From Haloflavibacter putidus (lineage in GTDB: Bacteria; Bacteroidota; Bacteroidia; Flavobacteriales; Flavobacteriaceae), in contig NZ_VIAR01000013.1 of the NCBI RefSeq assembly GCF_006546625.1, forward strand, positions 1 through 64,000: a DNA stretch of 64,000 nucleotides. Direction: 5' to 3'. Shown here piece after piece: positions 143 to 63,405 of this stretch. Every line of letters starts with the position of its first letter. Positions within the stretch are counted from its first letter, which is position 1. Both the position numbers and the translations under genes were made by a program. A model generated the notes under the pieces. It ran no database searches. It was not told the DNA's origin and was given only the letters and a program-made list of their open reading frames with translations.

Positions 143-245
143 GCGTTAAGGATAGTAGCGGTTACCCTGCAAACAAGCCTTTTTGGGCTTGTTGAAGCGT
201 AAAAGCGCATAGCCTGACCCTCAATTTTTATTGGGGGGAACGCCC
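143..245 (-). ncRNA. Structured noncoding element, copy 1 (possibly Flavo-1-like RNA)
   Basis: This sequence resembles, in inverted orientation, the element at 19248-19370. Read on the minus strand both copies begin GGGCGTT, carry CAATAAAAATTG, then a GGGTC-GGCTAT-CGCT block, and end with CCGCTACTATCC-TAACGC. The ends pair (GCGTT at 143-147 with AACGC at 239-243). An internal hairpin is formed by 172-179 and 186-193, and a second by 219-225 and 230-236. The internal hairpin sits at the same place in copy 2 but has a different sequence, which points to a selected structure. From memory it resembles the Flavo-1 RNA family of Flavobacteria; this was not tested. The strand is uncertain: the minus strand is chosen because copy 2 has a promoter in that orientation. 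Confidence 0.5.
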
Positions 246-18074: not shown

Positions 18075-19232
18075 CTAATTACTCACCACCTCAATCTCTT
18101 TCTTCACCGCTTCGGCTGTTTTTCTGGCCTCGTCCAAATCTTTGTTTACAATGGTAACGTGGCCCATTTTTCGGAAAGGACGGGTTTGTTTTTTACCGTA
18201 AATATGCGGACTCACCCCATCCATTTTCATTATTTTTTCAATGTTTTTGTAGCGTACTTGTCCTTCGTAATCTGGATGCCCAACTAAGTTAACCATCACG
18301 CCGGCAACCTTGCTATCTGTGTTTCCTAATGGCAAATCTAAAATAGCACGTAAATGCTGCTCGAACTGGTTGGTGTAGCTTGCCTCAATGCTGTAATGAC
18401 CGCTATTGTGTGGCCTTGGCGCTACTTCATTTACCAAGATTTCGTTTTCTTGTGTCAAAAAAAGTTCTACCGCCAATAAGCCCACATGTTCAAAACTCTC
18501 CGAAACTTCTTTAGCAACCGCGCGGGCTTTTTCAGCTATTTCGGGTTCTATTCTTGCCGGGCACAAAACGTATTCTACCTGATTGGCCTCCGGGTGAAAT
18601 TCCATTTCTACCACCGGATAAGTTTTTACCTCTCCAGAAACGCTTCGGGCAACCACCACGGCCAATTCGTTTTTAAAACGAATCATTTTTTCGGCTAAAC
18701 ACGCGCCATCGGGCATTGGTATCAAATCTTCTTCTTCTCTAATCACGCTCACACCTTTGCCGTCATAACCGCCGGTGGTGCTTTTCCATACAAACGGATA
18801 TTCCCATTCTTTACGCACCAAAGCTTCTGTCAAATCGTCTTTTTCGGGGTAAACCCTAAAATCTGCTGTAGGAATATTTTGTTCTTTATAAAAATTCTTT
18901 TGTACGCCTTTGTCTTGTATTTTCCGTAAAGTTGCCGCAGAAGGATATACTTTTTTGCCTTCCTTTTCCAATTGCTCTAAGGCCTCTACGTTTACGGTTT
19001 CAATCTCAAAGGTGAGTACATCTACTTTTCTGCCAAAATCTAACACGTTTTCAAAATTCATTAAGTCTCCTTCCGTAAAGGCATTGCACGCAATTTTACA
19101 CGGTGCTTCCGGATTAGGATCCATCACAGCGGTTTTTATATCGTATTTCCTGGTTTCGTACAACAACATTTTGCCTAACTGGCCGCCGCCTAAAATTCCT
19201 AAAGTAAAATTGGATGAAAAATAATTGTACAT
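18075..19232 (-). CDS. purK: 5-(carboxyamino)imidazole ribonucleotide synthase PurK
   Basis: PurK uses ATP and bicarbonate to convert AIR to N5-CAIR, the substrate of PurE encoded just downstream. The 385-residue protein has the ATP-grasp fold: TLGILGGGQLGKML at residues 10-23, WKSTTGGYDGKG for ATP binding, and NEVAPRPHNSGHYSIEA near 265. The frame opens at 19265 but ATG 19232 (MYNYFSSNF) fits the family. The noncoding element at 19248-19370 begins 16 bases upstream and, if transcribed from the plus strand, is divergent. Confidence 0.95.
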   Translation of the reverse strand: MYNYFSSNFTLGILGGGQLGKMLLYETRKYDIKTAVMDPNPEAPCKIACNAFTEGDLMNFENVLDFGRKVDVLTFEIETVNVEALEQLEKEGKKVYPSAATLRKIQDKGVQKNFYKEQNIPTADFRVYPEKDDLTEALVRKEWEYPFVWKSTTGGYDGKGVSVIREEEDLIPMPDGACLAEKMIRFKNELAVVVARSVSGEVKTYPVVEMEFHPEANQVEYVLCPARIEPEIAEKARAVAKEVSESFEHVGLLAVELFLTQENEILVNEVAPRPHNSGHYSIEASYTNQFEQHLRAILDLPLGNTDSKVAGVMVNLVGHPDYEGQVRYKNIEKIMKMDGVSPHIYGKKQTRPFRKMGHVTIVNKDLDEARKTAEAVKKEIEVVSN

Positions 19233-19235
19233 AAA

Positions 19236-19243
19236 TAAGTTTG
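19236..19243 (+). promoter_or_regulatory. Promoter -7 box for noncoding element copy 2
   Basis: TAAGTTTG matches TAnnTTTG. The element's first conserved bases, GGGCGTTT, begin 4 bases later at 19248, which is the expected distance to a transcription start. The -33 element is poor. Confidence 0.4.
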
Positions 19244-19247
19244 TTTT

Positions 19248-19370
19248 GGGCGTTTCCCTCCCCAATAAAAATTGGGTAGGGTCGGGCTATTCGCTATATC
19301 TTTTTTGGCAAAATGTAAAGCAGAGCCCAAGAGTTTTGCCAAAAAAGGATGCCGCTACTATCCCTAACGC
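19248..19370 (+). ncRNA. Structured noncoding element, copy 2 (possibly Flavo-1-like RNA)
   Basis: This matches copy 1 at 143-245. The ends pair (GCGTT at 19250-19254 with AACGC at 19366-19370). A first hairpin is CCCAAT at 19261-19266 with ATTGGG at 19271-19276. A second has a perfect 13-bp stem, 19301-19313 with 19334-19346. The last block, CCGCTACTATCCCTAACGC, is nearly identical in copy 1. A promoter-like TAAGTTTG just upstream supports the plus strand. No ORF is present. The Flavo-1 name is from memory and was not tested. Confidence 0.6.
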
Positions 19371-19437
19371 GGTAAGCAACAAAAATAAATCTTTCCAATA
19401 GATTTTACTAAACAATAGGCTTTAAATATGTAATCCT

Positions 19438-19475: not shown

Positions 19476-20006
19476 ATGCTTAAACTACACGATTTAGAAT
19501 TTGAGCCGTTTATTTCTAACCGGCAAATAGAAGCAGCTGTAGAAGAGGTTGCGCAAAAAATAAACGAAGACTTTTCAGGTAAATGTCCGGTTTTTTTAAG
19601 TGTTTTAAATGGCGCTTATCCGTTTACAGCGGCTTTAACCCAGCGCTTTAAAGGAGATTGTGAGGTAGAATTTACCAAGCTAAAATCGTATGAAGGCACT
19701 TCGTCTACCGGAAAATTAAAAAACCTAATTGGCGTAGAAAACCTAAAAGATAAACACGTAATTATAATAGAAGATATTGTAGACACCGGCAATACTTTTT
19801 CAGAAATCATTAAAATTTTAGAAGAAAAAGAAGTAGCCAGTTTTAAAATAGCTACTTTATTTTACAAACCCGAAGCTTATAAAAAAGAGCATAATCTAGA
19901 TTATGTAGGGATGGAAATACCCAACAAATTTATAGTAGGTTATGGTTTAGATTATGATGGTTTAGGTCGAAATTTGCCAGAAGTCTATCAATTAAAACAA
20001 AAATAA
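19476..20006 (+). CDS. hpt: Hypoxanthine phosphoribosyltransferase
   Basis: The enzyme salvages hypoxanthine or guanine with PRPP to give IMP or GMP. The 176-residue protein has the PRPP loop IIIEDIVDTGNTFSEI at about residues 96-111 and a C-terminal IVGYGLDYDGLGRNLPEVY block typical of the family. ATG 19476 gives the usual MLKLHDLEF start; the earlier ATG at 19443 overlaps the promoter. adk follows after one base, so purine salvage and nucleotide balance are co-expressed. Confidence 0.94.
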   Translation: MLKLHDLEFEPFISNRQIEAAVEEVAQKINEDFSGKCPVFLSVLNGAYPFTAALTQRFKGDCEVEFTKLKSYEGTSSTGKLKNLIGVENLKDKHVIIIEDIVDTGNTFSEIIKILEEKEVASFKIATLFYKPEAYKKEHNLDYVGMEIPNKFIVGYGLDYDGLGRNLPEVYQLKQK

Positions 20007-55840: not shown

Positions 55841-55924
55841 TTAAGTATAACTAAAAGGTATTACGATTATCGAAGGATTTATTTCTAGACCTTAATTCAT
55901 AATCACCTTTTAAATTTAAATTCA

Positions 55925-63280: not shown

Positions 63281-63312
63281 ATGCGTTAGGGATTGAACGA
63301 TTGTTGGAGCTC

Positions 63313-63359
63313 TTTTTGTTTTGTTATTTTGAGCGCAGTCGAAAAAAACAAAACAAAAA
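63313..63359 (+). terminator. Inverted repeat between the two amidinotransferase genes
   Basis: TTTTTGTTTTGTT at 63313-63325 pairs with AACAAAACAAAAA at 63347-63359. The loop carries GAGCGCAGTCGA, a fragment also seen at 15760. The stem is A/T-rich and has no following T-run, so it may be only a weak terminator for the upstream gene. Confidence 0.45.
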
Positions 63360-63405
63360 AGCGACTCGTGAAAGCCCGCCCGAACGCCCAAAAAATTAAA
63401 AAAGA

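Follow-up and report, generated by a model that had tools for sequence, protein, structure and literature searches.

Flavo-1 upstream of purK in Haloflavibacter putidus is probably one module of a dispersed, structured intergenic repeat

BOX of Streptococcus pneumoniae is described as a dispersed structured repeat whose ends stay the same and whose inner modules vary and fold largely apart from the ends; it has terminal inverted repeats and target duplications, and its copies differ in the number of inner modules (PMC3049150, in the part cited here). ERIC (or IRU) of enterobacteria is 127 bp long, intergenic and highly base-paired, with 7-bp inverted ends and target duplications. In Yersinia it is co-transcribed with its neighbours and, once co-transcribed, is reported to affect mRNA stability; the excerpt cited does not mention module exchange for ERIC (PMC2229807). 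REPIN/RAYT systems are made up of small palindromic repeats in many copies, associated with a Y1 transposase (PMC3116915). Flavo-1 was listed in 2010 as a candidate structured RNA by Weinberg et al. (PMC2864571, in the portion cited), and a flavobacterial transcriptome study stated, in the passages cited, that no real indication of function came from where it is placed (PMC9723704). According to those passages, several 5' transcript regions of F. psychrophilum coincide with Flavo-1 hits, which seem to be indistinctly sense or antisense, and many hits lie outside transcribed regions. Rfam carries Flavo-1 as type 'Gene; sRNA', without known function.

The element studied here lies at 19248-19370 on the minus strand of the window, i.e., of the whole stretch of 64,000 nucleotides analysed. 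It is 123 nt long with its 5' end at 19370, its ends being assigned from the frame pattern and the fold and equal to the core coordinates of the original prediction. Read on the minus strand, it is predicted to fold into a three-way junction of a closing helix (P1), the hairpin modelled in Rfam (P2) and a further hairpin (P3). The 5' strand of P1 (GCGTT, 19366-19370) pairs with AACGC (19250-19254), as assigned from fold and covariation, and is followed after its 3' strand by CC, the first C being found in 96% and the second in 78% of the type A copies (Flavo-1 plus outer frame) described below. In P2 (19284-19364; Rfam match, fold and covariation), the A.G and G.A mismatches of the foot are conserved, and the apical stem, from the sequence, is a perfect 13 bp (19301-19313/19334-19346). 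P3 (19256-19281; fold and comparison of purK sites) lies outside the Rfam model, and its sequence differs between the window's own genome (G000) and the nearest relative (G005), with pairing possible in both. The closing pairing (on the plus strand, GCGTT at 19250-19254 and AACGC at 19366-19370), the short hairpin and the 13-bp stem had been read correctly in the original prediction. The minus strand folds with −44.0 kcal/mol versus −31.2 kcal/mol for shuffles (z −3.34; 0/200 shuffles as good), and the plus strand, with −40.7 kcal/mol (z −3.01; 1/200 shuffles as good), folds well too, in keeping with a near-palindrome. Judged by fold versus shuffles, Rfam score and covariation of the frame pairs, the structure of 19248-19370 exceeds chance.

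A resemblance to Flavo-1 had also been proposed and was borne out by cmscan of the window, which matched RF01705 at 19276-19378 on the minus strand with 60.8 bits, above the gathering score of 42. The match spans model positions 1-76, with the consensus hairpin and internal loops found on that strand in the alignment, and the purK copy is a member of Flavo-1 by the curated score. No other Rfam family reached its gathering score in the purK leader in the same cmscan. Flavo-1 was also found in G013, of the same genus, so that the occurrence in Bacteroidetes fits the family. Compared with Flavo-1 in Rfam, the element is longer, P1 and P3 lying outside the Rfam hairpin as aligned. In Flavo-1 copies of other genera (L019-L023, L026, L027), P3 seems to be missing by eye, with a short A-rich stretch in its place, and P1 resembles AGCC/GGCT or similar.

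The element is located upstream of purK (18075-19232, minus strand, ATG at 19232-19230; TIGR01161, 375.5 bits, cut-off 318.4), behind which purE is found, and the divergent neighbour encodes a hypoxanthine phosphoribosyltransferase (19476-20006, plus strand; TIGR01203, 160 bits, cut-off 150). The Flavo-1 match is on the purK strand and the 3' end of the element is 15 nt before the purK ATG. On the other side, 9 nt before the element and on the same minus strand, is TATTTTTG (19380-19387), the probable −7 box of purK, which we take to fit the Bacteroidetes −7 box TAnnTTTG. The element thus has the probable promoter box of purK on one side and the purK start codon on the other. The purK comparison covered 60 relatives, 57 of them with a match, and leaders were read by eye in 30 loci given with DNA, 16 of the window's genus (own genome included) and 14 of other genera. 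In 9/16 same-genus leaders, TATTTTTG is followed at a distance of 9-12 nt by a frame-bearing element, and the same box precedes purK in the remaining seven, i.e., in all of the element-less ones (7/7). In the 14 loci of other genera, no element was seen in the leader by eye, and TATTTTTG was found in 12 and a close variant in two. Since TATTTTTG is upstream of the element and also before purK in relatives lacking it, the element most likely lies inside the purK 5' leader.

The original prediction had instead drawn a promoter from TAAGTTTG (19236-19243, plus strand), which is indeed present between the element and the purK start, 4 bases before GGGCG at 19248, and had suggested an RNA transcribed divergently from purK. 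This box is not kept in G005, where it reads TAACTTTT. In addition, in the 100 nt upstream of the element and on its own strand, TAnnTTTG occurs 13 times in 75 type A copies versus 13, 13 and 8 times in three control directions, and three times in 40 copies of type B (see below) versus 6, 5 and 2. With the box changed in G005 and no enrichment over the 75 copies, an own promoter and divergent transcription from TAAGTTTG are unsupported, and the latter also conflicts with the Flavo-1 match being on the purK strand and with TATTTTTG upstream, kept in element-less leaders.

The purK element is of type A in four genomes and of type B in five. In G008, G011, G002, G010 and G014, P1 and the foot of P2 are as in type A and the hairpin is different, with the consensus TTGTTKRAGCTC ... 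AAGCGASTNNYGA by eye. By cmscan of 13 purK loci at E ≤0.1, Flavo-1 was found in L049, L055 and L057 and was absent from the five type B loci; the only other Rfam match was a sub-threshold STnc370 elsewhere in L054. A further CTGCCGGCAGG-like palindrome was seen inside the AGCCC foot of the purK element in L052 and L054 (G002 and G014). The purK tree for counting gains and losses, with 9/17 inner branches open, is too poorly resolved to demonstrate a single gain at purK.

A type B model, R1, was built from these five purK sequences, one of them poorly aligned. It gave matches in 24/40 relatives (own genome 10, G011 32, G013 29), counts that are upper bounds because R1 also finds type A weakly. 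By eye, P1, the foot of P2 and the motif of type B are recognisable in 39 of 40 further R1 loci, the exception (L230) being shifted or decayed. In 20 of these 40 loci, cmscan matched Flavo-1 to the elements themselves twice, both times below threshold (E 0.21 and 0.37), and in L206, one true Flavo-1 copy is located beside the type B element. The frame therefore also bears hairpins other than Flavo-1, and type B is a sister class that Rfam misses. In 80 named purK loci, R1 found a leader element only in Mesonia phycicola DSM 21425, in a search where type A could be missed, and two weak matches outside the leader (L285, L278).

Two more frame copies are present in the window. The first (63283-63389, plus strand; R1 56.7 bits, E 5.4e-12) has a type B module and lacks P3; it had no Rfam match above the gathering score in the cmscan of the window, and has orthologs with both flanks alike in G005 (L233) and G011 (L227). 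The other (143-245, plus strand), assigned to type C from its sequence and a weak R1 match (17.6 bits, E 0.043), is closely similar to L016. L016 lies at the start of contig C22, and the sequence there is closely similar to that at the start of the window, so that each of the two contigs appears to end in a duplicated region.

Using the pattern AGCCCGACC-N4-34-GCCC for the right half of the frame, 11 matches were obtained in G000 and 36 in G011 (two of which overlap), and none with the control pattern read backwards. Eleven loci were inspected, mostly ones new to the A and B lists. They comprised two type B loci (L423, L437), two of type C (L431, L433, both with sub-threshold Flavo-1 in cmscan at E ≤1) and two variants of type A (L417, L421). 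In L440 and L444, a B or A module contains an additional insertion, L435 carries an insert of about 115 nt that resembles none of the rest, L432 has a short hairpin, and L434 is a chance match in coding sequence. L435 and L432 had no Rfam match in cmscan at E ≤1. Relative to Flavo-1 in Rfam, the frame thus also bears modules below the detection threshold, and no description of a Flavo-1 sister class or of module exchange was found among the titles and abstract starts listed for open-licence papers.

Covariation was analysed in a type A set made up of all 16 matches of G000, the best 30 of 39 of G011 and the best 30 of 38 of G013, from which an exact duplicate (L162) was removed, leaving 75 of 76 copies from three genomes, including some low-scoring G000 copies with a type C or variant inner part. 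P1 reads GCGTT/AACGC, GCGCA/TGCGC, GCGTG/CACGC, GCATT/AATGC, GCAAA/TTTGC and others. If columns were independent, pair 4 of P1 would be expected to be standard in 45.3 copies and pair 5 in 33.8; the observed counts are 75/75 and 73/75. Pair 5 of P2, in which all four Watson–Crick pairs are used, is standard in 74/75 copies versus 43.4 expected. Since placing the 3' strand of P1 by best pairing favours pairing, a shuffle control was made: true partners scored 4.92/5 versus a mean of 4.43 with left strands dealt to other copies, and the highest of 300 shuffles reached 4.59/5. At the P2 foot, the first mismatch is A.G in 71/75 type A copies and G.A in 4/75, the second is G.A in 74/75, and G.A replaces A.G in 2/40 type B copies. 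Selection on the fold appears to be the better reading, because mere palindrome correction would be expected to erase these mismatches. For P3, at least two contiguous outer pairs are possible in 75/75 type A copies, and P3 is absent (one outer pair only) in 6/40 type B copies, with offsets of up to 2 nt allowed and the chance level not computed in either case. G.T pairs account for 10/1180 tallied pairs in 118 loci, a figure without a control set to compare.

Minimum-energy folds of single sequences were less uniform. Among seven sequences, those of G005 (L049) and G008 (L050) fold differently in P2, and L055 does not stand out from its shuffles (z −0.68). The frame is also missing from the minimum-energy folds of two full sequences with type C or short modules.

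Flavo-1 occurs dispersed among marine flavobacteria. It is widespread in the relatives, with at least one match in 38/60 and matches above the cut-off in 34/60. In the same genus, 14/15 relatives carry Flavo-1, with 0-39 matches each, and the own genome has 16 matches, 11 of them above the cut-off. As in BOX and ERIC, many dispersed intergenic copies were thus found per genome (with ORFs from a simple script), and, as in BOX, the copies have constant ends and variable inner modules. The comparison is one of architecture. BOX varies in the number of its inner modules, whereas the element replaces one module type by another. The copies are T-rich at the 5' end and read CC(A/T)AA at the 3' end, and filled and empty purK sites are too diverged to display a target duplication; thus, the terminal inverted repeats and target duplications of BOX are not demonstrated for the element.

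Copies persist in place. Orthologous copies were paired by flanking proteins among those fetched per genome. Each of the 13 G005 copies pairs with a G000 copy in the same orientation, and 3/16 G000 copies (L007, L011, L016) have no G005 partner. Of 30 G010 copies, 25 pair with one of the 30 fetched from G011 (best 30 of 39), and 14 of these 30 G011 copies pair with one of 29 from G013. Orientation is the same in all pairs except L249/L157, which is paired on one flank only. When ten frame pairs were tallied per copy, 128/130 were unchanged between G000 and G005 and 247/250 between G010 and G011. Between G011 and G013, 131 of 140 were unchanged and six were double changes to another standard pair, versus 0.46 expected if the two sides were independent; two of the remaining pairs were broken on one side and one changed on both sides without giving a standard pair. 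The element arms are 96% identical (637/663) between G000 and G005 versus 87% (612/707) for the flanks, and 90% (626/698) versus 75% (433/576) between G011 and G013, where in both comparisons the flanks may include coding sequence.

Placement was determined with ORFs from a simple script, with no gene finder. Counting one site per orthologous group and dropping three further sites at contig ends, 49 type A sites were 11 sense, 18 antisense, 12 convergent and eight divergent. The 40 type B loci, with orthologs not collapsed, were 11 sense, 14 antisense, seven convergent and eight divergent. No clear preferred sense relative to genes was observed. The distance to an ORF end is shorter from the 3' end of the element than from its 5' end (Wilcoxon p 0.0001 for A and 0.04 for B): stop codons on the 3' side are within 20 nt in 22/30 type A and 17/21 type B cases, and 18 of the 38 A and B sites with a start codon on that side have it at 14-26 nt. 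The 3' end thus often abuts the stop codons of opposing genes or precedes start codons by 14-26 nt, and the 5' end differs in this respect.

These data bear on two readings that assign a function to the RNA. If the Flavo-1 copies were genes for trans-acting sRNAs, each with its own promoter, the Rfam type, the compensation that maintains structure at orthologous sites and the higher conservation of the arms than of the flanks would be accounted for, as would the TAnnTTTG boxes found within 10 nt of the element in 4/75 copies (four of the 13 upstream boxes, the purK copy included). However, a genome may contain as many as 39 diverged copies, many copies have an end no more than 20 nt from a start or stop codon, which leaves little room for an independent unit, and upstream boxes are not enriched, so that sRNA genes are a distinctly unlikely explanation. 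A cis-acting riboregulator of purine genes, either riboswitch-like or a protein-binding leader, would agree with a copy between purK and the hypoxanthine phosphoribosyltransferase gene in the probable purK leader, and with the 14-26 nt spacing in 18/38 start-codon sites. It is very improbable given that copies precede or follow a wide variety of genes, in every orientation, that the element is missing from 7/16 same-genus purK leaders, and that the inner hairpin, the expected location of a ligand pocket, is of the other type at purK in 5/9 genomes.

The difference in module was found at further orthologous positions. At five sites matched by both flanks, type A is present in one genome and type B in another: purK, L216/L268, L219/L266, L212/L257 and L125, and L203/L249; several other A/B sites were matched by one flank. 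Between L216 (G011, type B) and L268 (G010, type A), the differences in the aligned stretch are confined to the GGGAT-AGCCCG interval, and P1, P3 and the near flanks are identical. The same holds for L219/L266 (G011/G010) except for a few flank bases, and P1 differs in L203/L249. The 2.2 kb surrounding L216/L268 and L219/L266 are about 95% identical, versus 49% and 56% for the 100-column hairpin block. Both swapped sites, 2 kb apart and in inverted orientation, are type A in G013, so type B in G011 is probably the derived state. At several sites, one inner module has been traded for another within a frame that is kept, with the direction deduced from G013. Two other candidates were set aside: the one-flank match of L221 with L001 and L235 was dropped because P1 and the near flanks differ, and L207 is ambiguous, as two different G011 sites were each matched to it by one flank.

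Changes were also found within type A. Among 25 G010-G011 pairs with type A on both sides, L257/L125, L263/L130, L271/L110 and L275/L119 have an apical identity of 0.45-0.65, versus 0.80-0.98 for the 5' flank and frame and 0.63-0.98 for the 3' side, and several of the changed apical stems recur in other copies. In the apical stems of L108-L130, palindromes such as CTTCGACTCCGCTCGAAGTGAC and ATTCCTGCCTACGCAGGAAT are shared by different copies and also occur in type B loci; they look as if they had been inserted into hairpin tips. No nearly identical sequence that could have donated the two B modules found in place of A was seen in G011 or G010, where the best other match over most of the module is 81% and 85%, respectively, with shorter stretches at 94-97%.

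Exchange in place would also suit an element acting at the DNA level, with a single-stranded or cruciform fold serving recombination, replication or chromosome organisation. The lack of sense preference towards genes and the seemingly few G.T pairs for an RNA (10/1180, no control) point the same way, and in G013, 19/25 type A copies are opposite to the locally G-rich strand. However, this last bias (6 same, 19 opposite) is not repeated in G011 (15 same, 13 opposite), and a replication-strand bias was rejected for this reason; the test is itself weak because the 20-kb skew mostly tracks gene orientation. As the strand-specific mismatches are equally compatible with RNA, a DNA-level role is considered unlikely.

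Regarding mobility, a REPIN-like element mobilised by a resident REP-associated (Y1) transposase was considered. Like REPINs, the element is palindromic, intergenic and present in many copies, some apical loops contain palindromes that we take to be REP-like, and Y1_Tnp was matched in 24/60 relatives. In contrast to REPIN/RAYT, no Y1_Tnp match at E 1e-3 was obtained in the copy-rich G003, G004, G008, G010 and G013, which have 13-38 Flavo-1 matches. A resident REP-type transposase thus fails to explain the spread, RAYT-driven mobility is unsupported and this explanation is highly improbable. No transposase partner was identified, nor any recent insertion for which a near relative has a cleanly empty site.

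From the structure, covariation, copy number, persistence in place and module differences at orthologous sites, the element is probably a dispersed, structured intergenic modular repeat that acts in the manner of BOX or ERIC and is not a dedicated sRNA gene. The statements on the F. psychrophilum transcriptome, in the part of the article cited (PMC9723704), fit this reading. The frame consists of the closing helix P1, the P2 foot with its two constant mismatches (A.G and G.A) and usually also P3; the hairpin module inside it is A (Flavo-1), B, C or a rarer one. At several sites, copies are inherited in place and orientation, with compensatory change keeping the fold. At purK, the element would be transcribed in its folded sense and make up most of the 5' leader; a cellular factor recognising the frame may bind the folded strand, and the stable structure in the leader could determine how stable the mRNA is or how accessible to ribosomes, in line with reports on ERIC and BOX. 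Swapping of modules might proceed by copying from another frame-bearing element via the shared GGGAT and AGCCCGACC, i.e., by template switching. Some points count against the modular-repeat reading: compensation at each site is unusual for an ordinary mobile repeat and would allow each copy its own RNA function, and the want of a near-identical module donor and of a clean empty site, together with the non-frame single-sequence folds, weighs in the same direction.

More tentatively, and with considerable doubt, the frame can be pictured as a conserved socket that a bacterial factor binds as a folded single strand, with structurally different hairpins exchanged in place via short shared stretches at the hairpin foot and Flavo-1 as one of several inserts. 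Flavo-1 as one module on a common frame would explain the lack of a sense relation to genes, and type B adds a class that Rfam misses. Near relatives with different hairpins at the same site provide a natural experiment, and a protein binding the frame would become directly searchable.

Phages may also bear frames. In a viral contig (IMG/VR) with an endolysin match, the sole match of one narrow frame pattern among viral contigs (L446, 5515-5595) has a perfect P1 (GCGAT/ATCGC) and yet another inner hairpin. Other structured RNAs were matched as well: a TPP riboswitch (82.8 bits) at 1947-2041 of L210, near a type B element of G013, and, in the window at 55865-55904, an S4-Flavobacteria ribosomal protein leader (RF03141, 46.9 bits).
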